64,000 bases of DNA. It comes from Microbacterium murale (GTDB lineage Bacteria > Actinomycetota > Actinomycetes > Actinomycetales > Microbacteriaceae). This document shows, in pieces, positions 5,731 to 64,000 of the stretch. The stretch is from positions 48,097 through 112,096 of the forward strand of contig NZ_BMCM01000008.1 in NCBI RefSeq assembly GCF_014635185.1, read 5' to 3'. Both the position numbers and the translations under genes were made by a program. The notes below the pieces were generated by a model. The model was given only the letters and a program-made list of their open reading frames with translations, was not told where the DNA came from and searched no databases. Position 1 is the stretch's first letter. Each line of letters opens with the position of its first letter.

Positions 5731-5747
5731 CGTCTCCCTCGTGCGCT

Positions 5748-5823: not shown

Positions 5824-5832
5824 GGCGAAGGT

Positions 5833-44823: not shown

Positions 44824-44889
44824 GGATGCTCCTTCGCGTTGTCCGCCGGTTATCCCCACCCTAGGACGGCGGGCGTCGGCAGGGGTCGT

Positions 44890-44895
44890 TACGCT
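44890..44895 (+). promoter_or_regulatory. probable -10 box of recQ
   Basis: TACGCT lies 6 bp before the ATG at 44902; the intervening GGAGGG could also serve as a very close ribosome binding sequence. Confidence 0.35.
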
Positions 44896-44901
44896 GGAGG
44901 G

Positions 44902-46917
<2,016 letters not shown>

Positions 46918-46924
46918 CCGGGCG

Positions 46925-47353: not shown

Positions 47354-47357
47354 ACCT

Positions 47358-47369
47358 CAACTATAGTTG
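47358..47369. promoter_or_regulatory. palindromic divergent -10 element
   Basis: CAACTATAGTTG is a perfect 12-bp palindrome. Read on either strand it contains TATAGT, a near-consensus -10. It lies between the OsmC/Ohr gene and metN and ends just before the OsmC ATG, so one sequence may start transcription both ways; an operator role is the alternative. Confidence 0.55.
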
Positions 47370-47427
47370 GACTCAGTACACCAACTCCGGGCGATGAAGC
47401 CGCGAACGAAGGAAGCGGCACGCATCG

Positions 47428-48201: not shown

Positions 48202-48872
48202 TGAGCTGGCTCACCGACCTTCTCTCCGAGTACGGCGGCGATATCGCCGAGGCGCTCGCCGAGACCGGGTACATGATGCTCGTGTCGCTGGCGTCCGCCG
48301 TACTGATCGGCCTCCCGCTCGGGACGGTCGTGTTCCTCACGCAGCGCGGGGGGATCGCAGAGAATCGCCCGATCTGGTCGATCGCGAACATGTACATCAA
48401 CATCGTCCGCTCCTTCCCCTTCCTTCTGCTCGTGGTCTTTCTCATCCCGTTCACGCGCGCAGTGGTCGGTACGAGCTTCGGCACGCAGGCATCGACCCTG
48501 CCGCTGTGCTTCGTCGCGGTTGCGATCTACGCGCGGCTGGTCGAGCAGATCCTGCGGGAGATCCCGCCCGGTATCTCCCGTGTCGCCGTCGCCATGGGCA
48601 CCACGCTCCCGCAGGCGGTGTTCCGCGTCCTGCTGCCCGAAGCCCGCTCCGGTCTCGTCTACGCCCTCACCTCCGCCGCGATCAGCCTGTTGTCGTACTC
48701 GACCGTGCTCGGCGTCGTGGGCGGCGGAGGCATCGGTGACTTCGCCATGCGCTACGGCTACCAGGAATACAACGACGCGCTCATGTACATCACGATCGCG
48801 ATCATCGTCGTCTGCGTGCTGGTGATCCAGGCGGTCGGCCACCGTGCATCGGAACGACTCGATCACCGCTGA
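48201..48872 (+). CDS. metI: methionine-type ABC transporter permease
   Basis: A 223-residue permease of five to six helices. The coupling loop EIPPGISRVAVAMGTTLPQAVFRVLLPEA near residue 120-150 is the EAA motif of MetI. ATG 48201 overlaps the metN stop by one base (TGATG); GTG 48198 is an alternative. LSYSTVLGVVGGGGIGDFAMRYGY is the typical MetI C-terminal helix. Confidence 0.93.
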   Translation: MSWLTDLLSEYGGDIAEALAETGYMMLVSLASAVLIGLPLGTVVFLTQRGGIAENRPIWSIANMYINIVRSFPFLLLVVFLIPFTRAVVGTSFGTQASTLPLCFVAVAIYARLVEQILREIPPGISRVAVAMGTTLPQAVFRVLLPEARSGLVYALTSAAISLLSYSTVLGVVGGGGIGDFAMRYGYQEYNDALMYITIAIIVVCVLVIQAVGHRASERLDHR

Positions 48873-48900
48873 GAAGACACCTACGAAGAGAGAAGGACCA

Positions 48901-49722
48901 ATGAGAACCGCACGTATCGGCATCCTCGCCGCCGGCATCGGAGCCACCATGATGTTGGCCGGATGCGCGTCGGATCAGGCGTCCGAAGACGCTGATGCCG
49001 CAGCATCCGAACCTGTCGTGTTGAAGATCGCGGCCGTGACGGCGCCCATGACGGATGTCGTCGAGGCCGCCGGCGAGGCGATCGAGGACGGCTACGAGAT
49101 CGAGCTCGTCGAGGTCTCTGACTACATCACGGCCAACACGATCGTGAACGACGGCGATGCCTACGGCAACTTCTCGCAGCACGAGCCGTACATGCAGGAG
49201 TTCAACGCGGCGAACGACGCCTCCCTCGTGGCCGTGCAGCCGGTTTACAACTTCGTGATCGCCTTCTACTCGAAGACGCTCGACGACATCGCCGACCTGC
49301 CAGACGGCGCCACCATCGCCGTGCCGAATGACGCGTCGAACCTCGGCCGCGCCCTCAAGCTGCTCGACGCCGAGGGGGTCATCACTCTCGCCGCAGACGT
49401 GGATCCGTACTCCGCCACCGTCGAAGACATCGCCGAGAACCCGAAGAACGTCGAGTTCCTCGAGGTGCCGATCGCATCGCTGAACTCCGCGTACGAGGAG
49501 GCCGACCTGGTGTTCCAGTGGCCATCGCACATCGCGGCTCTCGGACTCAATCCCGAAGACGACGGTCTCATCACGGAACTCGACGATCGGTTCGCGCTGC
49601 ACCTCGCGGTCCGTGAAGAGGATGCCGACAGCGAGGCGACCGAGGCGCTGAAGGCCGCATTCTCCAGCGACGAGGTGCGCGATGTCATCGAGTCCAACGG
49701 CACGATCGACGTCGCGTTCTGA
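48901..49722 (+). CDS. metQ: MetQ/NlpA family substrate-binding lipoprotein
   Basis: A 273-residue lipoprotein. The lipobox MLAGC puts the lipidated Cys at 22. The body has YITANTIVNDGDAYGNFSQHEPYMQEFN and TIAVPNDASNLGRALKLLDAEGVI, the NlpA fold, and a C-terminal NGTIDVAF. Binding of D- or L-methionine is known for the family. ATG 48901 with AGAGAAGGA just upstream is preferred over an earlier in-frame ATG inside metI. No S-box or other riboswitch is visible upstream of metN. Confidence 0.92.
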   Translation: MRTARIGILAAGIGATMMLAGCASDQASEDADAAASEPVVLKIAAVTAPMTDVVEAAGEAIEDGYEIELVEVSDYITANTIVNDGDAYGNFSQHEPYMQEFNAANDASLVAVQPVYNFVIAFYSKTLDDIADLPDGATIAVPNDASNLGRALKLLDAEGVITLAADVDPYSATVEDIAENPKNVEFLEVPIASLNSAYEEADLVFQWPSHIAALGLNPEDDGLITELDDRFALHLAVREEDADSEATEALKAAFSSDEVRDVIESNGTIDVAF

Positions 49723-49785
49723 GCCGAGCTCTGGCGGACCGGCTGTGGCCTCGCGACAACTCGACCTGACCGCGTGACGCGAGCG

Positions 49786-49827
49786 CGTTGGAGGTTGCGC
49801 ACACATCACTTGGTAGCCCGTTGGAGG
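49786..49827 (+). repeat. direct repeat in promoter region of the acyl-CoA oxidase gene
   Basis: CGTTGGAGG at 49786-49794 recurs at 49819-49827, 33 bp apart, about three helical turns, in the 151-bp gap before the acyl-CoA oxidase-like gene. It may be a regulator site; chance is possible. Confidence 0.3.
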
Positions 49828-49873
49828 ACTCCTACGGTTGAAGCATCCTTACTTCTCTCTGAGAGGAACTCTC

Positions 49874-51931
49874 ATGGTCGACGCCGCCGTCCGCACCGCA
49901 ACGACACACCGAGACGACGATGCGCCCCGCATCGATGTCGACCGGGTCAACGACCTTCTGCTCGGAACCTGGGCCGACACGCGCCGCACCGCGCGCGAGA
50001 TGATCAAGGACCCGGCCTTCTGGCGGATGGATGAGCTCGGCAAGGACGAGCACCGCGAACGCGTGCTCAGCCAGCTGCACCTCCTGGTCGAGAACAAGGC
50101 CGTGCACCGCGCGTTCCCCAAGGAGTTCGGCGGCGAAGCGAACAACGGCGCCAACATCTCCGGCTTCGAGGAGCTCGTCGCGGCCGACCCGAGCCTGCAG
50201 ATCAAGGCCGGCGTGCAGTGGGGCCTGTTCGGATCCGCCGTGCTCCAGCTCGGCACCGAAGAGCACCACAGGAAGTGGCTCCCCGGAATCATGGACCTCA
50301 CGATCCCCGGCGCGTTCGCGATGACCGAGATCGGACACGGCTCCGACGTGGCAGCCGCGGGCACGACCGCGACATACGATCCCGAGACCGAGGAGTTCGT
50401 GATCGACACGCCGTTCCGCGCGGCCACGAAGGAGTTCCTCGGCAACGCCGCACTGCACGGCGTCGCGGCAACGGTGTTCGCACAGCTCATCACGAACGGC
50501 GTCAGCCACGGCGTGCACTGCTTCTACGTGCCGCTTCGCGGCGAGGACGGCAACGACCTGCCTGGCATCGGCCGCGAGGACGACGGCCTCAAGGGCGGCC
50601 TCAACGGCATCGACAACGGCCGCCTCTCCTTCGACCACGTGCGCATCCCCCGCACCAACCTGCTGAACAAGTACGGCGATGTCGCCGCGGACGGCACCTA
50701 CACGAGCCCGATCGACAGCCCCGGTCGCCGCTTCTTCACGATGCTCGGCACCCTGGTGCAGGGTCGTGTGTCACTTGACGGCGCAGCATCCTGGGGCTCC
50801 GCCCTCGGCCTCTACATCGCGATCACCTACGCCACCCAGCGCCGCCAGTTCGACGGAGCGGACGGGCAGGAGGTCGTGCTGCTCGACTACGGCAAGCACC
50901 AGCGCCGCCTGCTGCCGCGCCTGGCCACCACCTACGCGCAGATCTTCGCGCACGACGAGTTCCTGCAGAAGTTCGACGGCGTGTTCTCGGGCCGCACCGA
51001 CACCCCGGACGACCGCGAAGACCTCGAGACCCTCGCCGCAGCGCTCAAGCCGCTGTCGACCTGGCACGCACTCGACACGCTGCAGGAGGCCCGTGAGGCC
51101 TGCGGCGGCGCCGGCTACATGTTCGAGAACCGTCTGGTCGGTCTGCGAGCCGACCTCGACATCTACGTCACCTTCGAGGGCGACAACAACATCCTGCTGC
51201 AGTTGGTGGGCAAGCGACTGCTGACGGATTTCGCGAAGCAGTTCAAGGACAAGGATGCCGCGGCGCTCGCCAAATACGCCGTCGGTCAGACCGCGGGCAA
51301 GGTGTTCCACGGCGCTGGACTGCGCCGCTTCGGTCAGAACATCGCCGACTTCGGCTCGACCGCGCGCTCGGTCGAGAACGGTCTTCGTGCCGAGCAGCAG
51401 CACGAGCTGCTGGCCGACCGCGTGCAGCAGATGATCGCCGACATCGCCGGTCGCCTGCGTCCAGCGGGTAAGGACAAGGTGCTCGGCGAGAAGCTCTTCA
51501 ACGAGAACCAGGCGGATCTGATCGAGGCCGCTCGTGCGCACGGCGAGCTGCTGCAGTGGGAGGCGTTCACGGATGCTGTCAACAGCATGCCCGACGACGG
51601 CACACGGCACGTGCTCACCTGGCTGCGCGACCTCTTCGGACTGCAGCTCATCGAGAAGCACCTCGCCTGGCACATCATCAACGGACGCCTGTCGACGCAG
51701 CGCGCTGCGGCGGTCTCGAGCTACATCGACCGCCTCTGCCTGCGACTGCGTCCGCACGCGCTCGACCTGGTGAACGCCTTCGGCTACGAGCCCGAGCACG
51801 TGCGCGCGCCCATCGCCAGTGGTGTGGAGCTGGAGCGTCAGAACGAGGCGCGGGCGTACTACGCAGAGCTCGCGGCATCCGGCCAGGCGCCGATCTCGGA
51901 GAAGGCCCTCAAGAAGCAGAAGAAGGCCTGA
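49874..51931 (+). CDS. acyl-CoA dehydrogenase/oxidase family protein
   Basis: A 685-residue flavoprotein much longer than ordinary acyl-CoA dehydrogenases and similar in plan to acyl-CoA oxidases: N-terminal helical domain, FAD/beta domain with AMTEIGHGSDVAAAGTTATYD near residue 145, the second helical domain with EACGGAGYMFENRLVGLRADLDIYVTFEGDNNILLQ near 410, and a C-terminal helical ACOX-like domain. It would carry out the first step of beta-oxidation, passing electrons either to ETF or to oxygen. GAGAGGA precedes ATG 49874. A basic C-terminal tail ends EKALKKQKKA. Confidence 0.92.
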   Translation: MVDAAVRTATTHRDDDAPRIDVDRVNDLLLGTWADTRRTAREMIKDPAFWRMDELGKDEHRERVLSQLHLLVENKAVHRAFPKEFGGEANNGANISGFEELVAADPSLQIKAGVQWGLFGSAVLQLGTEEHHRKWLPGIMDLTIPGAFAMTEIGHGSDVAAAGTTATYDPETEEFVIDTPFRAATKEFLGNAALHGVAATVFAQLITNGVSHGVHCFYVPLRGEDGNDLPGIGREDDGLKGGLNGIDNGRLSFDHVRIPRTNLLNKYGDVAADGTYTSPIDSPGRRFFTMLGTLVQGRVSLDGAASWGSALGLYIAITYATQRRQFDGADGQEVVLLDYGKHQRRLLPRLATTYAQIFAHDEFLQKFDGVFSGRTDTPDDREDLETLAAALKPLSTWHALDTLQEAREACGGAGYMFENRLVGLRADLDIYVTFEGDNNILLQLVGKRLLTDFAKQFKDKDAAALAKYAVGQTAGKVFHGAGLRRFGQNIADFGSTARSVENGLRAEQQHELLADRVQQMIADIAGRLRPAGKDKVLGEKLFNENQADLIEAARAHGELLQWEAFTDAVNSMPDDGTRHVLTWLRDLFGLQLIEKHLAWHIINGRLSTQRAAAVSSYIDRLCLRLRPHALDLVNAFGYEPEHVRAPIASGVELERQNEARAYYAELAASGQAPISEKALKKQKKA

Positions 51932-51962
51932 CGCCCCGTCGGGTGGTGTCCGACCCGCCGGA

Positions 51963-51968
51963 TAGCGT
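51963..51968 (+). promoter_or_regulatory. probable -10 box of tag, leaderless start
   Basis: TAGCGT lies 6 bp before the ATG at 51975. Confidence 0.4.
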
Positions 51969-51974
51969 TGTGTC

Positions 51975-52544
51975 ATGACCTCCCTCCTCACCGGTGCCGA
52001 CGGACGCGCGCGTTGCGCGTGGATCGGAGCAGATGCCGAATACGCCAGGTACCACGACGAGGAGTGGGGCGTGCCGCTGCACGGCGGCCGCGCGCTCTTC
52101 GAGAAGATGGCGCTCGAGGGGTTCCAGGCCGGGCTCAGCTGGATCACGATCCTGCGCAAGCGTCCGCGTTTCCGTGAGGTGTTCGCGGGGTTCGACCCCG
52201 AGGCGGTCGCCGCGTTCGATGAGGACGACGTCGAGACCCTGATGGCGGATGCCGGGATCATCCGCAACCGCGCGAAGATCCTCGCCACGATCGGCAACGC
52301 GCGCCTCGTGACGGAGATGGTGGAGGGTGATCTCGACGAGCTGATGTGGTCGTTCGCCCCGGCCCCCGGCGCCCGTCCTCGTTCCTTCGACGACGTGCCT
52401 GCGGTGACCGCCGAGTCGACCGCGATGAGCAAGGCGCTGCGCGCCCGCGGGTTCCGATTCGTCGGAGCGACCACCATGTACGCGCTGATGCAGTCGACGG
52501 GCATGGTCGATGACCACGTGGAGGGATGCTGGCGGGCTGCCTGA
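51975..52544 (+). CDS. tag: DNA-3-methyladenine glycosylase I
   Basis: A 189-residue base-excision enzyme that removes 3-methyladenine. RCAWIGADAEYARYHDEEWGVPLHGGR at the N-terminus and MQSTGMVDDHVEGCW at the C-terminus carry the zinc ligands (Cys, His, His, Cys), and EKMALEGFQAGLSWITIL is the conserved helix over the base pocket. The Glu of EEWG and the aromatic residues of the pocket are present. Length is normal. Confidence 0.95.
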   Translation: MTSLLTGADGRARCAWIGADAEYARYHDEEWGVPLHGGRALFEKMALEGFQAGLSWITILRKRPRFREVFAGFDPEAVAAFDEDDVETLMADAGIIRNRAKILATIGNARLVTEMVEGDLDELMWSFAPAPGARPRSFDDVPAVTAESTAMSKALRARGFRFVGATTMYALMQSTGMVDDHVEGCWRAA

Positions 52545-52550
52545 TCAGAT

Positions 52551-52564
52551 GGGCATTTCTGCCC
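52551..52564 (+). terminator. weak hairpin after tag
   Basis: GGGCA-TTTC-TGCCC, a 5-bp stem just after the tag stop, followed by GTGGGG rather than a T-tract. Confidence 0.3.
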
Positions 52565-52588
52565 GTGGGGCGCTTCGCCTGCGGCAGT

Positions 52589-52662
52589 TAGTATGTACCG
52601 GTGCCTCCTGCCGCGAGTGGCTGTGAACGGCGCCGACGACGAAGCAGATGTTAATCGGGGGA
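52589..52662 (+). promoter_or_regulatory. probable promoter and ribosome binding site of the giant surface protein gene
   Basis: TAGTAT (52589-52594) is a good -10 box; the -35 is unclear. GGGGGA (52657-52662) lies 9 bp before ATG 52672. The 77-nt stretch between is GC-rich without a clear hairpin. Confidence 0.45.
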
Positions 52663-52671
52663 TGACTGACG

Positions 52672-55600
52672 ATGAAGGCGCTGTCATGGTTGCGCGCGAA
52701 GCCGAAGACAGCCGCATCGGTTGCGGGTGTCACAGCGGCGGTCGTCGCGATCGGCACGCTCGCCTTCGCGTATGAAGGCAATCCGACCACGAAGGTCGAT
52801 CTGAACGACGGCGGCGTCTGGATCACGAAGTCATCGTCGCTGATGGTCGGCCACTTCAACAACGAGTCCACCCTCCTCGACGGCGGATTGCGCACGACGG
52901 GCGAGGGCTTCGACATCCTCCAGGACGAGTCGACCGTGCTCGTGACGGACCGCACCGACGCGACGCTCACGGCCGTCGACTCCGCGCGCGTCTCGCTGGG
53001 CGACAGCACCACCATCCCCGGGTCGGCGAAGGTGGCGCTCGGTGCGCAGACCGCGGCGATCCTCGACACCGAGTCGGGCGACCTCTGGGTCGTGCCGGTC
53101 AAGGGCATATCCGGCTTCGAGCTGCAGGGGACGGATCCGCTCGTCGAACTGGGCAAGAACTCCGACGTGACCGTCGGTCAGGACGGCGCGGTGTATGCCG
53201 TCTCCGGCGAGAGCGCCGAAGTTGTCACCATCCCGGTCGACAACGAGGGCGAAGCACTCGACCCGCAGTCCGCCTCTCTCGGAGAGATCGACACGTCGAT
53301 CGCTCCCACCATCACGGTGGTCGGTGAGACGCCCGTCGTGCTGTCGCCGGCCGACAGCGCCGTGATGACTCCCGGCGGATTCCGCACCGAGATCCCCGAG
53401 GCCGACTCTGCCGTGCTCCAGTACGCGTCGGCGGCGACGGATGCCGTGACCGTGGCGACAGCATCTCAACTGATCGACGTTCCGCTCGACGGGGCCGAGC
53501 CGGTCGTGACCAAGGCCGGCGGTGACGGGACCCCTGCGGCGCCCGTGTCGTTGCTCGGCTGCACGTACGGCGCCTGGTCCGGCACCGGCGCGTTCGTCCG
53601 CGACTGTCCAGGCGGCGATGACGACGTCAACGAAGAAGTCCCGGGCGTCGAGTCTTCGGCGACGCTGAAGTTCCGCGTGAACCGCGACGTCATCATCCTC
53701 AACGACACGGTCGGCGGCGCGGCGTGGCTCGCCGACGAGAGCCTTCAGCAGGTCGACAACTGGGACGACCTGACCCCGCCCGAGGGCGAGACCGAGGACG
53801 AGGAGGACACCACGCAGGAGACCGTGGAGACCACCCTCCCGGTGCGCACGGACGTGAACACGCCGCCCGTCGCAGAAGACGACGAATTCGGCGTGCGTCC
53901 TGGTCAGACCACGGCACTGCCCGTGCTCGACAACGACAACGACCCCGACGGCGACGTGCTGGTCGCGGCGATCGCGGAGCAGCAGCCCTCGATCGGAACC
54001 GTGCAGCCCATCTACGACGGCGGCTCGCTGCAGATCGCCGTGGGAGAGGATGCCTCTGGCTCGGCATCCTTCGCGTACGAGGTGGATGACGGCCGCGGCG
54101 GCACGGACACGGCGAACGTGAACCTCTCGGTCAAGGACTGGGACACCAACACCGCCCCGAAGCCGAAGCGCACGACGGCGCTGGCGATCGAGACCGGCGG
54201 CACGATCTCGTACAACATCCTGCCGGACTGGATCGACCCGGAGGGCGACGACATCTACCTGCGTGAGGTCATCGCGGCCCCGGGCGACGAGGTCGAGTTC
54301 ACCACCGACGGGCAGATCACGTACCGCGCCACGGCGAGCCTGCAGGGCCGCAAGGAAGTGGAGATCTCGGTCGCCGATGCTCTCGGCGAGATCGCGACGG
54401 GCACCCTCGTGCTCGACGTGCGCCCTGCAGGATCGACGCTGCCGAAGACGAATGCCGATCACGTGATGACCCGTGTCGGCGAGCAGGTGACGGTGTCGCC
54501 GCTCGCGAACGACTCCAGTTCCGGTCAGGAGCAGCTTCGCCTCACCAGGGTCAACGGCGATGAGACGCCGGGCGCGACGGTCGAGCCCGACTATCCGAAC
54601 AAGACCTTCACCTTCAGCGCTCCCGCACCCGGTGTGTACTACGTGCTGTACGAGGTCGCTGCGGGACCGAACGGTGTGCCGGGCATCGTCCGCATCGACG
54701 TCGCCGACGCGAGCGAGCAGGACCTGCCTCCGGTCGCGGTGCGCGATGTCGCACTGCTACCGACCGGCGGCGAGGTGCTGCTGGGCGTGCTGAACAACGA
54801 CACGGATCCCTCCGGCGGCATCCTGGTGATCCAGTCGGTGAGCGTGGAACCCGGCAGCGGCATCTCTGTCTCGGTGCTGAACCACGAGTCGCTGCGCATC
54901 GGTGACCAGGGTGCTCTCGACGAGCAGGTGCGCATCAGCTACCGCATCTCGAACGGGTCCAAGACCGCCGAGGGCGAGGTGGTCGTCATCCCGATCCCCG
55001 CGCCGGAGAAGATCCTTCCTCCCGTCACCACCCCGGATCAGGCCGTGGTGCGCGTCGGCGACGTCGTGACAATTCCGGTGCTCGACAACGACACGAGCCC
55101 GGTCGGCGACGCGCTGACTCTCGAGCCCGAACTGGTCGAGCCCTTCGTCGAACCGGAGGACGGCGAGATCTTCGTCTCGCAGGATGCCGTGCGCTTCAAG
55201 GCGGGCGACGAACCCAAGACCGTCTACGCCACTTACGAGGTGTCCGACACGCGTGGGAACAAGGTCGGCGGGTACATCACGATCCAGATCGTGCCTGTTC
55301 AGGATGACAATGCTGCACCTCGTCCGCAGGACATCACCACACGTGTGCTCAGCGGCAACGTCGCGAACATCGCGGTGCCGCTGGACGGCATCGACGCCGA
55401 CGGCGACTCCGTCGAGTTGATCGGTCTCGCCTCGAACCCGAAGAAGGGGCGGATCACCGAGGTCGCGCAGAACTACTTCGTCTACGAGGCGTACGCCGAT
55501 TCTGCGGGCGTCGACACTTTCTCGTATCGGGTGCGCGACCGTCTCGGCAAGGAGGGCACGGCGACGATCCGCGTCGGCGTCGCCCCGGCCGAAGAGATGA

Positions 55601-58600
55601 ACCAGGCGCCGTACGCGGTCAAGGATGCTGTCGTCGTGCGTCCAGGGCGCGAGATCGCCGTGCCGGTGATGCTGAACGACTCCGACCCCGAGGGCGACAC
55701 CTTGTCGCTCGTGAAGGACGGACTCGTCCTGCCGGAGGACTCAGAACTCGAGGCCCGCGTCTCGGGGGACCGGGTGCTCGTACAGGCGCCGGATCGTGCG
55801 GTCGAGACCTCGCTGCAGTACACAGTCAGCGACTCCCGCGGTGCGCCCGCGCAGGCCGTGCTGCAGATCACAGTGGACGAGGACGTGCCGCTGCTGGCAC
55901 CGATCGCGCGTGATGATCGCGTGCTGCCCACCGACCTCACCGACGGCGGGCTCACCAGCGATGTGGACATCCTCGCCAATGACGAGGATCCGGACGGCAC
56001 GACCGAAGCGCTTGAGGTCGAGGTCGGTGCAGGCGGCACCCTGCTCGATGACGGCAAGGTGCGCGTCACCGTCGGCGATGAGATGCAGCTGATCCGCTAC
56101 ACGCTCACCGACCGCGATGAGCTGTCGACGTCGGCGTTCATCTTCGTTCCGGCCGTGAAGGACCTGAGGCCCTCGCTCACCTCGACCAAGCCCGTCGAGG
56201 TCATCAGCGGAGAGACCAAAGAACTGCCCCTGGACGAGTACGTGACGGTCGCCGGCGGTGGATCCGTCGTGATCACTGAGCACGCGAAGGTGAGCGCATC
56301 GAACGCAGATGGCGCCGACCTGGTCAAGGACGCCAGCACGCTCGTCTACACCTCGAAGCCCGGCTTCTACGGCGAAGACGGCATCTCGTTCGAGGTCACG
56401 GACGGCACCGGGCCCGATGATCCGGACGGTCGAAAGGCCACTCTGACGATCCCGGTCACCGTGCTGCCGCCAGACAACCAGCCGCCCACGTTCACGCGCG
56501 CCGAGATCAACGTCGCACCCGGCGAGGCTGCAACGACGCTCGATCTCGAGGCGCTGACCACGGATCCAGATCCGGAGGATGCCGGTAAGCACGAGTTCTC
56601 GCTCGAGGGCGACCCCGGAAACGGTCTGACTGCGCGCACCGACGGAGCGTCTCTGAGCGTCGAGGCGGCGTCGAACGCGAAGAAGGGCACGAGCCAGACG
56701 CTCACCGTCAAGGTCACAGACGGCGAGACCGAGGCGGTCGAGGGCACCGTGATCGTGAACGTCACGGCATCGACGCGTGCGATGGCGACGGCGAACACCG
56801 ACACGATCGACGAGGCGGATCAGGGCGAGACCATCTCGGTGCCCGTGCTCGCGAATGACTTCAACCCGTTCCCCGAGACCCCGCTGAAGCTCGTGTCGGC
56901 CGCACCGGAATCCGGCAGCGGCAGCGCCACGGTCGAGGGCAATGAGGTCCGGGTGACCCCGGACAAGGAGTTCGTCGGCACGCTCGTCGTCAGGTACACG
57001 ATCGAGGATGCCACCGAGGATACCGATCGACACGTCGACGGCCGCATTGTGCTGACGGTCCAGGGCGTACCGGAGGCGCCGGGCCGACCGCAGGTGACGA
57101 GTGTGCAGGACCGAACCGTCGTGGTGTCATTCTCGGCACCGTCAAACAACGGTGCCGAGATCTCCAAATACACCGTCTCGAGCACCTCGGGAAGCGCGTA
57201 CAGCAAGGAGTGCGCGTCGACGACGTGCACGCTGGACGGTCTGACGAACAACGTCGAGTACACCTTCCAGGTCATCGCGACCAACCGTGTCGGGGACTCA
57301 GAGCCGTCGGGGGCATCTGCGGTCGCACGCCCCGATGCGCGTCCCGACACCCCGGTCGCGCCGACGCTCGTCTTCGGCGACAAGTCGCTGGCGGTGGCCT
57401 GGACCACGCCGACCACCCCGGGTTCTCCAGTCGAGTCGTACAATCTTCAGATCTCGCCGGCGCCGCCATCCGGCATCACCGAGAAGACCGGTGTGTCAGG
57501 CAACTCGCTGACCTGGGAGGGACTGGAGAACGGCACCTCGTACCAGGTCAGGGTGCAGGCCGTGAACAGGGCTCCTGAGCCGTCGACGTACAGCGGATGG
57601 TCCCTCGCGGAGATTCCCGCCGGTCCGCCGGTGCAGCCGGCAGCGCCGACCACGTCGGAGCTCGCTGCGGTCGGCGACCAGGCGCAGATGAACGTGGTCT
57701 GGGCGGCACCGAACAACAACGGCGATTCGATCGACAGCTATCAGGTGCAGGTGCTCGAGGGCGGCTCGACGGTGCGGACGATCAACGTCCCCGCAGGACA
57801 GACCAGCCAGGCCGTCACCGTGCCCACATCGGAGCGGGGCTACACCTACATCGTCCGCGCTGAGAACAAGGCGGGGTGGGGAGCGTGGAGCCCGCCCTCG
57901 GCTGAGCGCCGCGGTGCGATCCGTCCGGACGCTCCGAACACCCCGTCGATCTCTGCAGACGACCGATCCATCACGATCGCCGACAACTACACCCTGACGG
58001 CGGAGCAGCGAAACGGTGCAAAGGCGTCCGAGATCAGCTACCAGTACCGGCTGAACGGCGGCGGATGGCAGGCCCTGACCAACAACACGATCGGCGGGCT
58101 CAGCAACGGCACGCAGTATCGGGTCGAGATCCGCGCGCTGTCCAATACCGGCACGGGCAGCTACACGGGTGTCGGGTCGGCCGCCTCCAACGCGGCGACG
58201 CCGTTCGGCATCCCGCCGCAGCCGAACGCGAGTGCGAGGAACAATGGCTCGAACATCACGCTCAGCTGGAGTAACAATGGCAACAACGGCGCTGCACTCA
58301 CCGACACACAGATCCGTATCCGTAACCAGAACGGTAACTGGAGCGGCTGGGAAAGCGTGGGCAACAGCGGTACCCGGAACGTCGGCAGCCCGTACTCGCA
58401 GAACTTTGCGATCGATGTGAGGGTGCAGAACAAGGCAGGCTGGTCGTCCGTGGCATCGGCGTCCGCGACTACGGACAAGAAGCCAGATCCGACGGCCAAC
58501 ACGGTCAAGGGAAAGTCCGGTTACTGGCCGCCTGGATGGGGCGGGAGCGGGTCCTGCACTACGCCCACGTGTGCATACATGGCCGTCCAGGTGAAGGACT

Positions 58601-58779
58601 TTCCGGCCGGAAACTACAGGCTCTATTGTGACGTCCCAGGCGACAGGCACGGGGGACAAACAAAATATGTCCCTGCCAACGGCAAGGTGGAGCTCGAGTG
58701 CTTCTACGGGATGCCCAATACGACCGTGAGCGTGTACATCGAGGGCTGGGGCTCCGCGCAGCCGATGACCTGGTACTAG
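52672..58779 (+). CDS. giant surface-type protein with Ig/cadherin-like and Fn3 modules
   Basis: A 2035-residue protein. Residues 14-36 are hydrophobic (SVAGVTAAVVAIGTLAFA), either a membrane anchor or a signal peptide with AFA before a possible cleavage. Residues about 45-330 look like a beta-propeller. From about 395 to 1450 come some nine Ig/cadherin-like modules marked by VLDNDNDPDGD (418), VLNNDTDPSGG (706), VLDNDTSPVGD (803), MLNDSDPEGD (1000), ILANDEDPDGT (about 1099), VLANDFNPF (about 1391); the Asp-rich turns could bind calcium. From about 1465 to 1930 are about five Fn3 domains. The last 90 residues hold four Cys. No sortase motif. It heads a tight operon with moxR, DUF58, TgpA and RDD genes; its role is unknown. 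Confidence 0.85.
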   Translation: MKALSWLRAKPKTAASVAGVTAAVVAIGTLAFAYEGNPTTKVDLNDGGVWITKSSSLMVGHFNNESTLLDGGLRTTGEGFDILQDESTVLVTDRTDATLTAVDSARVSLGDSTTIPGSAKVALGAQTAAILDTESGDLWVVPVKGISGFELQGTDPLVELGKNSDVTVGQDGAVYAVSGESAEVVTIPVDNEGEALDPQSASLGEIDTSIAPTITVVGETPVVLSPADSAVMTPGGFRTEIPEADSAVLQYASAATDAVTVATASQLIDVPLDGAEPVVTKAGGDGTPAAPVSLLGCTYGAWSGTGAFVRDCPGGDDDVNEEVPGVESSATLKFRVNRDVIILNDTVGGAAWLADESLQQVDNWDDLTPPEGETEDEEDTTQETVETTLPVRTDVNTPPVAEDDEFGVRPGQTTALPVLDNDNDPDGDVLVAAIAEQQPSIGTVQPIYDGGSLQIAVGEDASGSASFAYEVDDGRGGTDTANVNLSVKDWDTNTAPKPKRTTALAIETGGTISYNILPDWIDPEGDDIYLREVIAAPGDEVEFTTDGQITYRATASLQGRKEVEISVADALGEIATGTLVLDVRPAGSTLPKTNADHVMTRVGEQVTVSPLANDSSSGQEQLRLTRVNGDETPGATVEPDYPNKTFTFSAPAPGVYYVLYEVAAGPNGVPGIVRIDVADASEQDLPPVAVRDVALLPTGGEVLLGVLNNDTDPSGGILVIQSVSVEPGSGISVSVLNHESLRIGDQGALDEQVRISYRISNGSKTAEGEVVVIPIPAPEKILPPVTTPDQAVVRVGDVVTIPVLDNDTSPVGDALTLEPELVEPFVEPEDGEIFVSQDAVRFKAGDEPKTVYATYEVSDTRGNKVGGYITIQIVPVQDDNAAPRPQDITTRVLSGNVANIAVPLDGIDADGDSVELIGLASNPKKGRITEVAQNYFVYEAYADSAGVDTFSYRVRDRLGKEGTATIRVGVAPAEEMNQAPYAVKDAVVVRPGREIAVPVMLNDSDPEGDTLSLVKDGLVLPEDSELEARVSGDRVLVQAPDRAVETSLQYTVSDSRGAPAQAVLQITVDEDVPLLAPIARDDRVLPTDLTDGGLTSDVDILANDEDPDGTTEALEVEVGAGGTLLDDGKVRVTVGDEMQLIRYTLTDRDELSTSAFIFVPAVKDLRPSLTSTKPVEVISGETKELPLDEYVTVAGGGSVVITEHAKVSASNADGADLVKDASTLVYTSKPGFYGEDGISFEVTDGTGPDDPDGRKATLTIPVTVLPPDNQPPTFTRAEINVAPGEAATTLDLEALTTDPDPEDAGKHEFSLEGDPGNGLTARTDGASLSVEAASNAKKGTSQTLTVKVTDGETEAVEGTVIVNVTASTRAMATANTDTIDEADQGETISVPVLANDFNPFPETPLKLVSAAPESGSGSATVEGNEVRVTPDKEFVGTLVVRYTIEDATEDTDRHVDGRIVLTVQGVPEAPGRPQVTSVQDRTVVVSFSAPSNNGAEISKYTVSSTSGSAYSKECASTTCTLDGLTNNVEYTFQVIATNRVGDSEPSGASAVARPDARPDTPVAPTLVFGDKSLAVAWTTPTTPGSPVESYNLQISPAPPSGITEKTGVSGNSLTWEGLENGTSYQVRVQAVNRAPEPSTYSGWSLAEIPAGPPVQPAAPTTSELAAVGDQAQMNVVWAAPNNNGDSIDSYQVQVLEGGSTVRTINVPAGQTSQAVTVPTSERGYTYIVRAENKAGWGAWSPPSAERRGAIRPDAPNTPSISADDRSITIADNYTLTAEQRNGAKASEISYQYRLNGGGWQALTNNTIGGLSNGTQYRVEIRALSNTGTGSYTGVGSAASNAATPFGIPPQPNASARNNGSNITLSWSNNGNNGAALTDTQIRIRNQNGNWSGWESVGNSGTRNVGSPYSQNFAIDVRVQNKAGWSSVASASATTDKKPDPTANTVKGKSGYWPPGWGGSGSCTTPTCAYMAVQVKDFPAGNYRLYCDVPGDRHGGQTKYVPANGKVELECFYGMPNTTVSVYIEGWGSAQPMTWY

Positions 58780-58800
58780 TAAGAGAAAAGAGAATCGCGA

Positions 58801-59772
58801 ATGACCATGACCCCCGAACAGGCTGCCTGGTTCCAGGGCACCTTCACCCGCCTGGTCGACAACATCGACAAGGCCGTGCAGGGTAAGCGCGAGGTCGTCA
58901 GCCTGGTGCTGGCGGCCATGCTGGCCGAGGGCCACGTGCTCCTCGAGGATGCTCCTGGCACGGGGAAGACGAGTCTCGCGAAGGCGCTGGCCGCGACGGT
59001 GCAGGGCACGAGCTCTCGCATCCAGTTCACGCCCGACCTGCTCCCGTCCGACGTCACGGGTGTCACGATCTACGACCAGCAGGCGCACAAGTTCGAGTTC
59101 CACAAGGGTCCGATCTTCTCGTCGATCGTGCTCGCGGACGAGATCAACCGCGCCTCCCCGAAGACGCAGTCCGCCCTTCTCGAGGTCATGGAGGAGTCGA
59201 AGGTCACGGTCGACGGCGTCACCCACGAAGCCGGCCGTCCGTTCCTCGTCATCGCCACCCAGAACCCGGTCGAGCAGGCCGGCACGTACAAGCTGCCTGA
59301 GGCGCAGCTCGACCGCTTCCTCATCAAGACGTCGATCGGCTACCCCGACCTCGCGGTCACAGAGCTGATCCTCGCCGGAGCATCCGATCGCAATCCGTCG
59401 TCGAGCCTCTCCGCAATGATCACCACCGGTGCCGTCGCCGACATGGCCGACCTCGCCGCCAGTGCTCATGTCGAGCCAGCTGTGCTGCGCTACGTCGCCG
59501 AACTCGCAGAGGCGACTCGCAATGACAGCGGCGTGCGGCTCGGAGTGTCGGTGCGCGGGGCGATCGCCATGATCCGGCTCGCCAAGGTGTGGGCGGCCGC
59601 ACACGGCCGCCACTACGTGCTGCCGGACGACATCAAGACGCTCATCGCGCCGTCGTGGCAGCACCGTCTGATGCTCGACGCCGAGGCCGAGTTCGCCGGC
59701 ACCACCGCGGATGTGGTGATCAACCGCGTGCTCGAGACGATCGCGGCTCCCCAGGCGCGAACGGCGGCTTGA
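58801..59772 (+). CDS. MoxR family AAA+ ATPase
   Basis: A 323-residue AAA+ protein. Walker A is G53-T-G-K-T57 in EDAPGTGKTSLAKALA, Walker B is VLADEINRASPKTQSALLEVMEE near residue 110, and ATQNPVEQAGTYKLPEAQLDRF is sensor 1 and the arginine-finger region of MoxR. MoxR proteins work as chaperones with DUF58/VWA-domain partners, exactly the gene that follows with a 1-bp overlap. It starts 21 bp after the giant surface protein gene, with a GAGAAAAGAGAA purine-rich ribosome binding sequence. Confidence 0.95.
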   Translation: MTMTPEQAAWFQGTFTRLVDNIDKAVQGKREVVSLVLAAMLAEGHVLLEDAPGTGKTSLAKALAATVQGTSSRIQFTPDLLPSDVTGVTIYDQQAHKFEFHKGPIFSSIVLADEINRASPKTQSALLEVMEESKVTVDGVTHEAGRPFLVIATQNPVEQAGTYKLPEAQLDRFLIKTSIGYPDLAVTELILAGASDRNPSSSLSAMITTGAVADMADLAASAHVEPAVLRYVAELAEATRNDSGVRLGVSVRGAIAMIRLAKVWAAAHGRHYVLPDDIKTLIAPSWQHRLMLDAEAEFAGTTADVVINRVLETIAAPQARTAA

Positions 59773-61031
59773 TGACCGCAGAGACGCTGCCCGCATCGCC
59801 CGAGATCGCCCGTGACGCCGGATGGCGCGACATCGCGGCGGTCATCGGCGCGCGCGTCGGCGCCCGTCTGCAGAAGATCGCGAGTGTCATCCGGCCGCTC
59901 GCGTGGGTGCTCATGGCCCTCGCGCTCGTGTTCTGGATCGTCGGTGTCAGCCTGGGCTGGAGCGAGCTGACCCTCGCCGCCGTCATCGTGGCGCTCACGC
60001 TGATCCTGTGCGCACTGTTCCTCATCGGACGCACCGAGTACGACGTCACCCTCGACCTCGCCCGCACGCGGGTCGTCGTCGGCGAACGCGCAGTCGGCGC
60101 ACTCACGCTGTCGAACCCCGGCAGTCGAGCCATCCTGCCCTCCCGCGTCGTGCTGCCCGTCGGAGGGGGACGCGGTGAGTTCGGCATCCAGCGACTCTCG
60201 CCGGGGGAGAAGGCCGAAGAGCTGTTCGCGATCCCCACCCAGCATCGCGGCGTGGTCAAGGTCGGCCCGGTCAGTGTCGTCCGCGGCGATCCGTTCGGCC
60301 TGTTCGAGCGCGCACATCGCCGTGACGACCCCGTCGACCTCTTCGTCCACCCGCAGACGGTGCTGTTCGACGGCCAGTCGCTCGGGTTCCTCCGCGACCT
60401 CGAGGGTCTTCCCGCCGCAGACCTCTCGCGCGACGACGTCTCATTCCACGCGCTCAACGAGTATCAGCCCGGCGACGACCTGCGCCATGTGCACTGGCGA
60501 TCGACCGCTCGCACCGGCGTGATGATGGTGCGCCAGTACGAGGAGACCCGGCGCTCGCACTTCGTGATCGGACTCTCCCGCTCGAGCGGCGACTACGCGA
60601 CCTCCCAGGACTTCGAACTCGGCATCTCGGTCGCGGGCTCCGTCGGTCTGCGTGCCATCCGCGACTCCCAGCGCGTCGACGTGCGCGTGCAGGGGCGCGA
60701 GCTGCGCGCCGGCACCGGCAAGCAGTTCCTCGACTCGCTCGCCGCCGTCGAACCCAGCAAGCCCCGTGAAGGCGGGCTCTCCGATCTCAGCGGAGTGATC
60801 GCCGCTACCGCGCCGCTTGCGAGCGTCGTCGTGCTGGTGTGCGGCACCAAAGTGTCCAATGAAGACCTGCGCCTCGCCTGCGCCCGGCTCCCGTACGGTG
60901 CCAGAGTGATCGTCGTCGTCGCCGACACCACCGTCGATATGCCCGCACTCCGCCAGATCGGCGAGGCCGCCGTCGTGAGCGTCGGTGCACTGCAGCAGAT
61001 ACCCCTCGCTCTTCAGAAGGTCCTCGCATGA
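59772..61031 (+). CDS. DUF58 domain protein
   Basis: A 419-residue protein with two helices near residues 37-80 (PLAWVLMALALVFWIVGV and the next) and a cytosolic or periplasm-facing VWA-like region. The DUF58 signature is YQPGDDLRHVHWRSTARTGVMMVRQYEE near residue 230, preceded by VVKVGPVSVVRGDPFGLFERAHR. ATG 59772 shares one base with the moxR stop (TGATG). DUF58 proteins are the regular partners of MoxR ATPases. The start at 59772 is preferred because the longer in-frame reading would overlap moxR by about 180 bp. Confidence 0.93.
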   Translation: MTAETLPASPEIARDAGWRDIAAVIGARVGARLQKIASVIRPLAWVLMALALVFWIVGVSLGWSELTLAAVIVALTLILCALFLIGRTEYDVTLDLARTRVVVGERAVGALTLSNPGSRAILPSRVVLPVGGGRGEFGIQRLSPGEKAEELFAIPTQHRGVVKVGPVSVVRGDPFGLFERAHRRDDPVDLFVHPQTVLFDGQSLGFLRDLEGLPAADLSRDDVSFHALNEYQPGDDLRHVHWRSTARTGVMMVRQYEETRRSHFVIGLSRSSGDYATSQDFELGISVAGSVGLRAIRDSQRVDVRVQGRELRAGTGKQFLDSLAAVEPSKPREGGLSDLSGVIAATAPLASVVVLVCGTKVSNEDLRLACARLPYGARVIVVVADTTVDMPALRQIGEAAVVSVGALQQIPLALQKVLA

Positions 61032-63433
61032 GCGCCACCACGGCACAGGTGCACACGAGTGCGCCCGTGATCCCCGTGCGCCGCTGGATCCTCGACATCG
61101 TGGCTGTCCTGGTGCTGCTCGGCGTCTCGATCGCGGGCTTCTGGCCGAGCTTCGCTGGGGGGAGCTACCTCGGCGCGGCCATCGGTGGCACGTTCCTCGG
61201 CATCGCGATCGCCGCAGTCGCGGCATGGCGGCGATGGGGCATCCTCATCATTGCCGGGCTCACCGTGCTGACCTACTTCGTCTTCGGTGGCGCGTTCGCC
61301 TTGCCCCACACGGCGATCATCGGCGTCATCCCGTCCCTCGACACGCTGCGACAGCTCGCCGTCGGGGTCGTCACGTCATGGAAGCAGTTGCTGACGACGG
61401 TGGCGCCGGTCTCCGGCGCCGACGGGCATTTCATCGTGCCGTTCCTGCTCATGCTGGTCATCGCGGTGGTCACGGCATCCCTCGCCCTGCGTCTCGCGCA
61501 GCCCGCCTGGGCGCTGATCCCCGCAGGGATTCTGCTCGCGGTCGTCATCGCCCTCGGTACGCCGCAACCGGCCGTGCCGGTCATCCAGGGCACCATCTTC
61601 GCGCTCGCCAGCATCACCTGGTTGGCGATGCGCCAGATATGGTCACCGCAGAACGCCGCGGTGTCGGTCGGCGAGGTCGATCCGGCTCGCGCGAACCAGA
61701 TGCGGATGCGGCGACTGCTCTCGGGCGCCGTGGTGCTCGTCGTCGCAGCCGGGGTCGGGGTGGCGACCAGCGCGTTCACCGCACCCGCAGAGGTGCGTCA
61801 CGTGCTGCGCGACACGATCATCCCGCCGTTCAACGTGCACGACTATCCCAGTGCCCTCCAGTCCTTCCGTGGTCACGTGCGCGACGATGCCGACAGCACG
61901 CTGTTCACCGTGCGCGGACTGCCGGAGGGCGCGCGCGTCCGACTCGCGGCCATGGACGAGTTCGACGGCCAGGTCATCAACGTCGTCGACGGCGGCCCCG
62001 GCTCATCCAGTGCGTTCACGCCCATCCGCTCGAACATGTCGCCCGACGCCGAGGGCGTACCCGTGACGCTGCAGTTCGACATCGACGGATACTCCGACGT
62101 GTGGGTTCCGCAGGCAGGATTCGTCTCGGAGTTCCGCTTCTCCGGCGACGACGGCGACGCACTGCGTCGCGGCACCTACTACAGCGCCGGCTCGGCCACC
62201 GCCGTGGCCACGCCAGGGCTCAGCAAGGGCGACAGTTACACCGTCGAGACGACGCTGCCCGCCGACTACAGCGACGAGCAGCTCGCCGAAGCGGAGTTCG
62301 GCGCCGTGCGGCTGCCGAAGAACGAGAACGTGCCGGAGGAGTTCACCTCCCTCGCCGGCGAGATCGTGTCGGATGCCGAGACCCCTGTCGAGCAGGTGCA
62401 GGCCCTGGAGACGTTCCTGTCCGAAGACGGCTTCTTCAGCCACGGTCTCGAGGGCGAGGTCATCTCACGCTCCGGCCACACCTCCGAACGCGTCTCCACC
62501 CTCATCGGCGGCGATCAGATGATCGGCGACGACGAGCAGTACGCCGTCACGATGGCGCTGCTCGCCGGCGAGGTCGGCATCCCCGCGCGCGTCGTGATGG
62601 GCTTCTACCCGGATGAGGAGCAGGCCGGGGCCGCAACATTCACGGCGACCGGCGACAACATCCACGCCTGGGTCGAGGTCAACTTCGACGGCTTCGGCTG
62701 GGTTCCGTTCGACCCGACGCCCCCGGAGGACCAGGTCCCGAACGATCAGAACACCAAGCCGCGCGCCGACCCCAAGCCGCAGGTGCTGCAGCCGCCACCC
62801 CCGCCGCAGGAGCCGGTCGACCTTCCCCCGACGCTGCCGGATGACCGCGAGTCCGAGGACGAATCGCTCAACATCGGCGGCATCATCCTCGCGATCCTCG
62901 CCATTGGAGGAATTTCGCTCGGCATCATCGCGCTGCTGGCCTCACCGTTCATCATCATCGGCGCGTGGAAGGCCTCGAGGCGCCGGTCGCGGCGGACAGC
63001 GGAGCGGACGGCGGATCGCATCGCGGGCGGATGGGACGAGCTCACCGACCGTGCCGTCGACTACGGCGCACCGCTCGCACCGGGGGCGACCCGTGGTGAA
63101 GAGGCGGTGCTGGTCGCCGAATCTCTGACCGTGCCGACCGTGACCACGCTCGCGCACCGTGCGGATGCCGAGGTCTTCGGGCCGAGCGATCCGAGCCCCG
63201 CCGACGTCGACGCCTTCTGGCAGCAGGTCGACGAGATCGTCGCAGGGCTCGGCAGCGAAGCAGGGTTCTGGAAGCGCACGAAGGCGCGGCTGAGCCTGCG
63301 CTCTCTGCTGGTCGGCTCCGCCATGTCGAACGGCTTCCAGGGGCTCAAGACCGCGGCAGCCGCGCGCGTTCGCCGAGAACCTGGCACCATCAAGAACAGC
63401 ACTTCCGAAGCACCCGAGAGTGAGACCCCATGA
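61028..63433 (+). CDS. TgpA-like transglutaminase-domain membrane protein lacking the catalytic Cys
   Basis: An 801-residue membrane protein. N-terminal block of about six helices (residues 20-260), an exported region, a transglutaminase-like domain at about 445-570, a Pro-rich stretch (PPPPPQEP near 592), one helix near 615-645, and a charged cytosolic tail. In the transglutaminase core the motif is G500-D-D502-EQYAVTMALLAGEVGIPARVVMGF: active enzymes have Cys where Asp502 stands. The His (HAWVEVNF) and Asp (PFDPTPP) of the triad are still there. So it is probably a non-catalytic binding domain. ATG overlaps the DUF58 stop by 4 bp. Confidence 0.9.
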   Translation: MSATTAQVHTSAPVIPVRRWILDIVAVLVLLGVSIAGFWPSFAGGSYLGAAIGGTFLGIAIAAVAAWRRWGILIIAGLTVLTYFVFGGAFALPHTAIIGVIPSLDTLRQLAVGVVTSWKQLLTTVAPVSGADGHFIVPFLLMLVIAVVTASLALRLAQPAWALIPAGILLAVVIALGTPQPAVPVIQGTIFALASITWLAMRQIWSPQNAAVSVGEVDPARANQMRMRRLLSGAVVLVVAAGVGVATSAFTAPAEVRHVLRDTIIPPFNVHDYPSALQSFRGHVRDDADSTLFTVRGLPEGARVRLAAMDEFDGQVINVVDGGPGSSSAFTPIRSNMSPDAEGVPVTLQFDIDGYSDVWVPQAGFVSEFRFSGDDGDALRRGTYYSAGSATAVATPGLSKGDSYTVETTLPADYSDEQLAEAEFGAVRLPKNENVPEEFTSLAGEIVSDAETPVEQVQALETFLSEDGFFSHGLEGEVISRSGHTSERVSTLIGGDQMIGDDEQYAVTMALLAGEVGIPARVVMGFYPDEEQAGAATFTATGDNIHAWVEVNFDGFGWVPFDPTPPEDQVPNDQNTKPRADPKPQVLQPPPPPQEPVDLPPTLPDDRESEDESLNIGGIILAILAIGGISLGIIALLASPFIIIGAWKASRRRSRRTAERTADRIAGGWDELTDRAVDYGAPLAPGATRGEEAVLVAESLTVPTVTTLAHRADAEVFGPSDPSPADVDAFWQQVDEIVAGLGSEAGFWKRTKARLSLRSLLVGSAMSNGFQGLKTAAAARVRREPGTIKNSTSEAPESETP

Positions 63434-64000
63434 CACAACTGGCGTTCGGCACCATCGCCCCGACGTCGCGGCGTGCCGTGGCATACATCATCGACGCCGC
63501 GATCGCGGCGGGGATCGGTATCGTCCTCGGCGTCGTGCTCATCATCTTCGCGACGCTCGCCGGACCCGATGGGATGCTGGGGGTGCTCGCCATCGGCGCG
63601 CCGGTGGTGTGGCTGCTCCTGGTCGGCTGGTTCGTGTTCTACACCTTCATGCAGGCCACGGGCGGCTCCATCGGCATGCGCACGCAGGGACTGCGCCTGG
63701 TCAAGGAGACCGATGGCACCCCGCTCGGGTTCGGACGCGCACTGCTGCGCAACGTCATCTTCGGGCTCGCAGCATCCATCGTCGTCGGTTACTTCACTCC
63801 GCTGTTCGACGGGTCGGGGCGTTTCCAGGGCTGGCACGACAAGGTCGCACGCGCGCTGATGATGGATGCGCGCGCCGGTGCCGCATCGGTCGCCGCGCCC
63901 CACACTCAGGCCATGAGCGTGCCGCCGCGGCCGGTGGCGCCCGACGCGGTGCCGCCGCTGCCGGGCCGCGCCGGTTCAGCACCGAACTTCTCGTTCCCCG
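63430..64000 (+). CDS. RDD family membrane protein (3' end outside window)
   Basis: The reading frame is open from ATG 63430 to the end of the window (190 codons). It opens MTQLAFGTIAPTSRRAVAYI with the RDD signature (SRRAVAYIIDAAIA), two to three helices, then GGSIGMRTQGLRLVKETDG and FQGWHDKVARALM, the second half of the RDD domain. From about residue 155 a Pro/Ala-rich tail begins. In related actinobacterial gene clusters such proteins may carry or precede an FHA domain; this cannot be seen here. It overlaps the TgpA gene by 4 bp (ATGA). Confidence 0.85.
   Translation, partial: MTQLAFGTIAPTSRRAVAYIIDAAIAAGIGIVLGVVLIIFATLAGPDGMLGVLAIGAPVVWLLLVGWFVFYTFMQATGGSIGMRTQGLRLVKETDGTPLGFGRALLRNVIFGLAASIVVGYFTPLFDGSGRFQGWHDKVARALMMDARAGAASVAAPHTQAMSVPPRPVAPDAVPPLPGRAGSAPNFSFP

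Follow-up and report, generated by a model that had tools for sequence, protein, structure and literature searches.

A conserved giant surface protein and MoxR-DUF58-TgpA gene cluster in Microbacterium murale, with a possible link to type VII secretion

The end of a 64,000-nucleotide stretch of the Microbacterium murale genome (the window; contig NZ_BMCM01000008.1, here C8) encodes a giant surface protein followed by a MoxR-family ATPase, a DUF58 membrane protein, a TgpA-like protein whose transglutaminase-like domain lacks the catalytic Cys, and the beginning of an RDD-domain membrane protein. We found that the giant gene and the machine genes behind it are linked among relatives, and we consider the chances about even that they form a machine, controlled by phosphorylation, for assembling or operating a surface stalk anchored in the membrane, and that this machine is tied, in many lineages, to a type VII secretion system. 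A preliminary description of the window had reported this gene order with its overlaps and domains, which were confirmed by open reading frame (ORF) calls and Pfam, and had supposed that the machine folds, assembles or regulates display of the giant protein at the cell surface, an interpretation that our results partly support. The genes in question are as follows (aa, amino acids).

52672..58779, + strand: giant surface protein, 2035 aa (ORF call, Pfam, AlphaFold, Foldseek); approximate parts are a membrane segment at residues 14-32, a predicted beta-propeller at 45-357, a middle of about 10 Ig/cadherin-like domains with three Pfam Fn3 and further Fn3-like domains, and a terminal variable beta-domain at 1900-2035
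58801..59772, + strand: MoxR-family AAA+ ATPase, 323 aa (ORF call, Pfam)
59772..61031, + strand: DUF58 membrane protein, about 419 aa (ORF call, Pfam)
61028..63433, + strand: TgpA-like polytopic protein, transglutaminase-like domain without catalytic Cys (GDDEQYA) (Pfam, alignment)
63430..64000, + strand: 5' part of a gene for an RDD-domain membrane protein, still open at the window end (Pfam)

A gap of 21 base pairs (bp) separates the giant gene from MoxR, and the subsequent junctions down to the RDD gene are overlaps of 1, 4 and 4 bp; the ATG of DUF58 overlaps the MoxR stop by 1 bp, and a longer mechanical ORF begins at GTG 59589. Pfam models matched on the window proteins were Big_9 (10 stretches), fn3 (3), AAA_3, DUF58, Transglut_core with TgpA_N, and RDD, the MoxR/DUF58 pair being recognized by AAA_3 (PF07726, 210 bits) and the adjacent DUF58 (PF01882, 42.8 bits). 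The window ends where contig C8 ends (112096 bases). Rfam gave nothing at gathering score in 50000-64000, and a promoter and terminator scan (one promoter-like site vs 0.7 expected, five terminator-like sites vs 2.8 expected) was not used.

Linkage and conservation of the giant and machine genes

To describe the linkage, we used two overlapping sets of loci. The MoxR set contains 90 loci in stretches of up to ~20 kb, comprising 37 matches of at least 59% identity (E up to 3.1e-119) and 53 of 60 from an order-wide search, and was drawn from 38 genomes (the M. murale genome included) and 109 genomes of the order; weaker MoxR paralogues were dropped, as were L058 (a repeat of L011) and L117 (a weak MoxR), and the M. 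murale genome supplied four further strong MoxR loci (L045-L048) as controls. The TgpA set contains the best 80 of 460 confirmed loci, mostly from Microbacterium, and shares contigs with the first set (L146 with L018 and L156 with L016, for example). Giants were counted only at loci with at least 6.5 kb upstream, which excludes loci close to contig ends.

An ORF of at least 1700 aa directly preceded MoxR in 79 of 82 testable loci of the MoxR set, and an ORF of this size preceded TgpA in 68 of 69 testable loci of the TgpA set. Thus, the surface-assembly idea of the preliminary description, which was to be abandoned if the giant gene proved unlinked or absent in most relatives that keep moxR-DUF58-TgpA, withstood this check. 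The three exceptions in the MoxR set were L075 (1363 aa), L084, in which no giant was seen, and L024 (genome G007), whose giant is broken into two ORFs that overlap (1332 and 1111 aa). None of the four control loci had an ORF of at least 1200 aa. DUF58 was found near MoxR in 88 and TgpA in 87 of the 90 loci, and MoxR identity was 60-90% among the giant-linked loci of the first relative set. Among the matches listed, the closest relatives of the window TgpA were those of Microbacterium sp. AK031 (88%) and M. aerolatum (84%), measured over best segments. Two arrangements could be distinguished: A-type operons, to which the window belongs, with the kinase downstream, and B-type operons, in which the kinase immediately precedes the giant. 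Both types occur together in several genomes. In genome G021, tandem giants of 2023 and 2029 aa precede MoxR (L058:3499 and L058:9700), and a third giant lies just upstream in the B-type operon L044.

Further from Microbacterium, the homologous core was identified in Arthrobacter, Cryobacterium, Agreia and Herbiconiux as well as in Microbacterium itself (best 80 of 460 loci), genera that are mostly environmental or plant-associated, and the MoxR marker was detected at E<=1e-100 in 53 of the 109 genomes of the order. It should be noted that L162 (JACEFY010000193.1), titled Stenotrophomonas maltophilia, carries Microbacterium-like TgpA, RDD-FHA and PP2C genes, probably owing to assembly contamination. 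At the class level, where 20 of 53 matches were fetched, the giant was present in nine of 10 loci of family f41 and in none of the 10 others, in which no ORF of 1500 aa was found before MoxR. Five of these distant loci were inspected: in L221 the preceding ORF is a kinase, and in L215, L220, L222 and L224 it encodes 781-1229 aa with an N-terminal hydrophobic segment and Fn3 (below the Pfam cut-off in L220). The N-terminal profile of the giant, run against this five-sequence set, matched the latter four at E values of 0.019, 4.4e-16, 1.7e-8 and 5.9e-9, respectively. The TgpA query had no relative in viral contigs.

The giant itself appears to be anchored at its N-terminus, as the preliminary description had proposed in place of a sortase: among 147 giants, 138 have an N-terminal hydrophobic segment, one has a C-terminal segment and two have an LPxTG-like motif. 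The window giant has a single hydrophobic segment, which is N-terminal, and no sortase-type C-terminal LPxTG with membrane segment. An AlphaFold model of residues 1-396 (52 sequences; mean predicted local distance difference test score, pLDDT, 85.9) predicted a membrane helix and a beta-propeller, and the propeller reading was backed by Foldseek and VIA. The top Foldseek match was a surface-layer protein of archaea that combines a YVTN propeller with PKD domains, BamB propellers ranked as well, and a PDB profile search with the N-terminal region gave weak matches to designed propellers (best E 1.8e-4). Residues 1752-2035 were modeled at pLDDT 94.7 as Fn3-like domains and a terminal beta-domain, the split between them being read by eye.

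The length of the giant is nearly constant, namely 2001-2231 aa in the TgpA set (n=68; coefficient of variation, CV, 0.018) and 1793-2405 aa in the MoxR set (n=78; CV 0.040), in statistics that used ORFs of at least 1700 aa only and whose spread is narrowed by this threshold. Homology to the window giant was found by phmmer for 77 of 78 MoxR-set giants at E<=1e-10, and the N-terminal profile matched 63 of 78; the 15 giants that it missed are mostly from kinase-first operons. Conservation differs along the protein: mean pairwise identity (69 sequences, 2346 pairs) was 0.55 over residues 1-1650 (the shaft) vs 0.28 over 1900-2035 (the tip), and shaft and tip identity still correlate (Spearman 0.80). 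The tip nearest to that of the window belongs to L130 (58%, with a shaft of 70%), whereas the nearest locus, L196, has a 94% identical shaft and a tip of 40%, a pattern that fits exchange or fast change of the tip.

The classical transglutaminase triad is Cys-His-Asp. The preliminary description had called the window transglutaminase domain Cys-less, and we indeed found GDDEQYA at the Cys position, or close variants in the other cluster proteins, vs SGYCIHFA in L045, a TgpA paralogue that the M. murale genome encodes away from any such cluster. Of 170 ORFs examined, 169 lacked Cys at that position, the sole bearer and only Cys-bearing control being L045; the Cys-less motif fitted 167, and two of the remaining three also have no Cys. 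By distinct sequence (n=163) the residue was D in 133, E in 11, A in seven, S in six and G in three, with three unmatched including L045. All 20 more distant copies lacked Cys as well (the L217 alignment is weak), and in B-type proteins the His is also lost according to the alignment. With Cys missing from the catalytic position in every cluster copy examined, the product called 'tgm' cannot be a classical transglutaminase.

The downstream genes and the EssC-like ATPase

Family searches located a PP2C match and an FHA match (in a 1547-aa frame) near the end of a second contig, C7, of the same genome. In operon order this end carries an FHA tail that fits the RDD gene, a PP2C protein of 271 aa, an FHA protein of 450 aa and a Ser/Thr kinase of 563 aa whose motifs are intact and which also has a membrane segment and an outer domain; behind the kinase follow a second RDD-FHA protein, a 1544-aa FHA-FtsK/SpoIIIE ATPase (EssC-like) and a WXG100 protein. 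On the relative L196 the two contig ends lie side by side, the C8 end stopping at 12941 and the C7 end starting at 12984, and in relatives the RDD gene runs into a Pro-rich linker and an FHA domain; the window RDD gene probably continues on C7 in the same manner. The assembly break falls inside the Pro-rich linker of the RDD-FHA gene (window 63430-64000; L049:18697-19509), perhaps owing to low complexity. The phosphatase, kinase and FHA genes that the preliminary description expected beyond the window are thus all present on C7, and the same operon includes EssC/WXG100 type VII genes, which it had not foreseen. Beyond the WXG100 protein lie three 235-aa WXG100-type modules (Pfam on one), one of which is followed by a Scabin-like domain. 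These modules (L049:929-1636, 2361-3068 and 5686-6393, within L049:354-6393) look like polymorphic toxin cassettes.

The downstream genes recur in relatives. Among the 60 loci of the TgpA set with at least 9.5 kb downstream, custom profiles found a kinase in 60, an FHA protein in 60, PP2C in 58 and EssC in at least 32; in the MoxR set, whose stretches reach ~20 kb at most, the lower bounds are at least 73 of 90 for the kinase, at least 49 of 90 for PP2C and at least 23 of 90 for EssC. The ATPase and the WXG100 protein of C7 are a general type VII pair (PF01580, 195.9 bits; PF06013, 47.2 bits vs a cut-off of 27.3). The threshold of NCBIfam TIGR03930 was missed (38.0 vs 44.85), and the ATPase scored below that of the EssC equivalog TIGR03928 (532.5 vs 778.4 bits). 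EssB/YukC (PF10140) had no match in the M. murale genome, and the B. subtilis control matched; EccB (PF05108) had none either, but the control genomes likewise gave no match.

We then measured the distance between the two markers, with EssC thresholds of E<=1e-60 in the first genome set and E<=1e-100 in the order-wide set. EssC was present within 30 kb of 28 of the 90 MoxR loci, in all 28 downstream on the same strand and 3.6-15 kb away; further ORFs recognized by the EssC profile near L090 and L093 (1051 and 1003 aa) are not counted among the 28. In the 10 distant class-sample stretches, five had EssC-profile matches, that of L218 on the opposite strand. In the distant actinomycetes of L222 and L224, EssC abuts the propeller-Fn3 gene and MoxR, and in L222 the neighboring genes for EssC, the Fn3 protein and MoxR share 4-bp overlaps (mechanical ORF starts). 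WXG100-like ORFs, recognized by eye, lie near EssC in L226, L227, L228 and L230, which belong to the genomes of L222, L224, L221 and L220, respectively. Thus, the association with the type VII motor recurs but is not obligatory.

Proposed function and rival explanations

From this pattern we infer an assembly function, its regulation and a role in secretion. The giant would be held by its N-terminal membrane segment, with the beta-propeller just outside the membrane, the Ig and Fn3 domains forming a stalk of nearly fixed length and the terminal domain a fast-changing tip that probably recognizes something outside. MoxR and the membrane DUF58 protein may carry out ATP-driven remodeling of the complex, in which the Cys-less transglutaminase domain would act as a binding partner of the stalk base and not as a catalyst. 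Assembly would be turned on and off by the transmembrane Ser/Thr kinase, PP2C and several FHA proteins. Because the same operon carries an EssC-like ATPase in many relatives, and here also WXG100 and toxin-type genes, the most likely use of the stalk is in contact-dependent export of proteins directed at other cells, where it would correspond to EsaA/YueB of Bacillota. On this analogy, the kinase would stand in for YukC and the giant for YueB, and MoxR-DUF58-TgpA would be the loading machine.

Several observations weigh against this proposal. No EssC match lies within 30 kb at 62 of the 90 MoxR loci (some on short contigs), and in six single-contig genomes (G008, G013, G015, G052, G067 and G102) the two genes are at least 199 kb apart. 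Four genomes with the cluster (G003, G016, G018 and G020) have no EssC match at E<=1e-60, and five Bifidobacteriaceae-like genomes with the cluster have none at E<=1e-100; the core therefore appears to work without this EssC. L084 (genome G085) has linked EssC, MoxR, DUF58 and TgpA and no giant seen, and offers a natural case in which to ask whether the motor can work in the absence of a stalk. In L224, the protein encoded before MoxR carries an additional hydrophobic segment at its C-terminus. By eye the kinase ectodomain resembles Fn3, yet the Pfam Fn3 model gives no match. Finally, in 28 pairs with shafts more than 85% identical, tip identity ranged from 0.38 to 0.99 (median 0.72), so that variation is uneven.

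Some of these points favor a rival explanation, namely that the product of the core, under kinase control, is an ordinary adhesin or a surface fibre spanning the wall, and that EssC/WXG100 are frequent neighbors rather than users. The many loci without EssC nearby and the Bifidobacterium-like clusters without it agree with such a fibre, as does the adhesion reported for the bifidobacterial FN3 protein in excerpts of PMC6803598 and PMC12607495. The position of nearby EssC genes, 28 of 28 downstream and on the same strand, their contact with the propeller-Fn3 gene and MoxR in L222 and L224, and the WXG100-like ORFs of four such genomes speak against it, and we regard the plain fibre as somewhat unlikely. 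A machine mainly for envelope growth or wall remodeling, with the giant as a structural wall or S-layer-like component, would suit the surface-layer and BamB propeller matches and the even length of the giant; such a housekeeping role agrees poorly with a MoxR marker found in only 53 of 109 genomes, and the fast-changing tip suggests outward recognition, making this explanation improbable. The weakest alternative is that the system senses and binds host cytokines in species-specific host communication, as suggested for the PFNA cluster of Bifidobacterium. A C-terminal FN3 fragment is reported to bind TNF-alpha, and TNF-alpha to induce the operon in B. longum (excerpts of PMC10688814 and PMC12607495), but the homologous core in the five genera named above makes a bifidobacterium- or host-specific role very improbable as the general function, although a host-immune role could be a later use in gut species.

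Returning to the stalk machine, a bolder version is that it represents a distinct actinobacterial type VII system, in which an active transmembrane kinase and the propeller-Ig-Fn3 stalk replace EssB/EsaA, MoxR-DUF58-pseudotransglutaminase loads the stalk, PP2C and FHA proteins act as the switch and the tip chooses the target cell; in the bifidobacterial branch the motor would have been lost and the stalk retained. This version is tentative, and we think it unlikely. If the EssC link is functional, the membrane and surface proteins of the locus become candidate components of an EssB-less type VII system of actinobacteria, and the MoxR-DUF58-TgpA trios, otherwise poorly known in function, gain a role that can be tested. 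Among the open-licence PubMed Central (PMC) papers listed, judged by titles and abstract starts, none dealt with a type VII link of this combination.

Comparison with known systems

The type VIIb system (EssC/YukB, EssB/YukC, EsaA/YueB, WXG100) shares with the present operon an EssC-like ATPase with N-terminal FHA and FtsK/SpoIIIE domains, WXG100 and WXG100-type toxin cassettes. In the B. subtilis system, YukB touches the pseudokinase YukC through its FHA domain, and a large outer domain occurs on one subunit only, YueB. Here, in contrast, EssC stays below the TIGR03928 cut-off, the genome gave no YukC/EssB match, and a kinase with intact motifs and a propeller-Ig-Fn3 giant are present instead. 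A kinase, a phosphatase and an FHA protein beside a contact-dependent secretion system also characterize, in outline, the threonine phosphorylation pathway (PpkA-PppA-Fha) of the type VI secretion system, but the secretion machine is another one and no homology is claimed. The mycobacterial moxR1-DUF58 operon beside ripAB shares the MoxR-DUF58 pair, and its resemblance to the PFNA cluster of Bifidobacterium has been noted, whereas neither a giant nor a transglutaminase-like partner is mentioned in the excerpts of PMC12067865. Further candidates were rejected. In the MoxR-vWA-propeller ternary systems (PMC7159879) the propeller is fused to the vWA protein, and the term DUF58 is absent from that paper; the bpMoxR model does pass its Pfam cut-off on the window MoxR (40.4 vs 27 bits), but AAA_3 scores 210 bits. 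Matches of PADLOC to kinase, FtsK/HerA-type and AAA proteins of anti-phage defence were taken as shared domains and not as a sign of defence.

The closest known system is PFNA. The window giant matched five giants of family f4 by phmmer at E 5.6e-196 to 3.3e-178, and thus is homologous to them. The Bifidobacterium identity of this family rests on the phosphoketolase in two of the five genomes and on XFP matches in all five; the G115 phosphoketolase is nearly identical to PDB 3ahc, a B. breve protein. The G115 locus (L108) reads kinase-giant-MoxR-DUF58-TgpA-PP2C, with the giant at E 5.6e-196 to that of the window and PP2C at 23.6 bits, just under the Pfam cut-off of 24. Another genome of f4, G101, has an EssC match of 34% identity, but no MoxR match in the order-wide search. 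The TgpA copies of all five f4 loci read GDSEQYA, which is at odds with the description of PFNA Tgm as a presumed cysteine enzyme in PMC8430577.

In Bifidobacterium the PFNA order is pkb2-fn3-aaa-atp-duf58-tgm, to which some species add prpC, a hypothetical gene and fha, the genes are co-transcribed in B. longum GT15, and Pkb2 phosphorylates the linked MoxR (excerpts of PMC8430577, PMC6803598, PMC10688814 and PMC12607495). The window shares the fn3-MoxR-DUF58-TgpA order on one strand, a giant of ~2000 aa with Fn3 near residue 1500, and kinase, phosphatase and FHA partners. It differs in that its kinase lies downstream, whereas pkb2 directly precedes fn3 (the kinase profile had no match before the giant in window 44001-64000), in its extra RDD-FHA and FHA genes, followed by EssC, WXG100 and toxin-type cassettes, and in not being bifidobacterial; among relatives, the paralogous B-type operons resemble PFNA in placing the kinase first. 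Because the kinase does not come first, the window, judged by its genes, is a homologous PFNA core and not a strict PFNA cluster. The preliminary description knew of no described function for this combination, which must be corrected, as adhesion, cytokine binding and kinase-MoxR phosphorylation have been published for the homologous PFNA. Three papers call PFNA unique to bifidobacteria and tied to the host; what is new here is the occurrence of the cluster across actinomycetes, its Cys-less partner, the membrane-anchored propeller base, the conserved shaft with a fast-changing tip and the frequent, though not universal, link to EssC.

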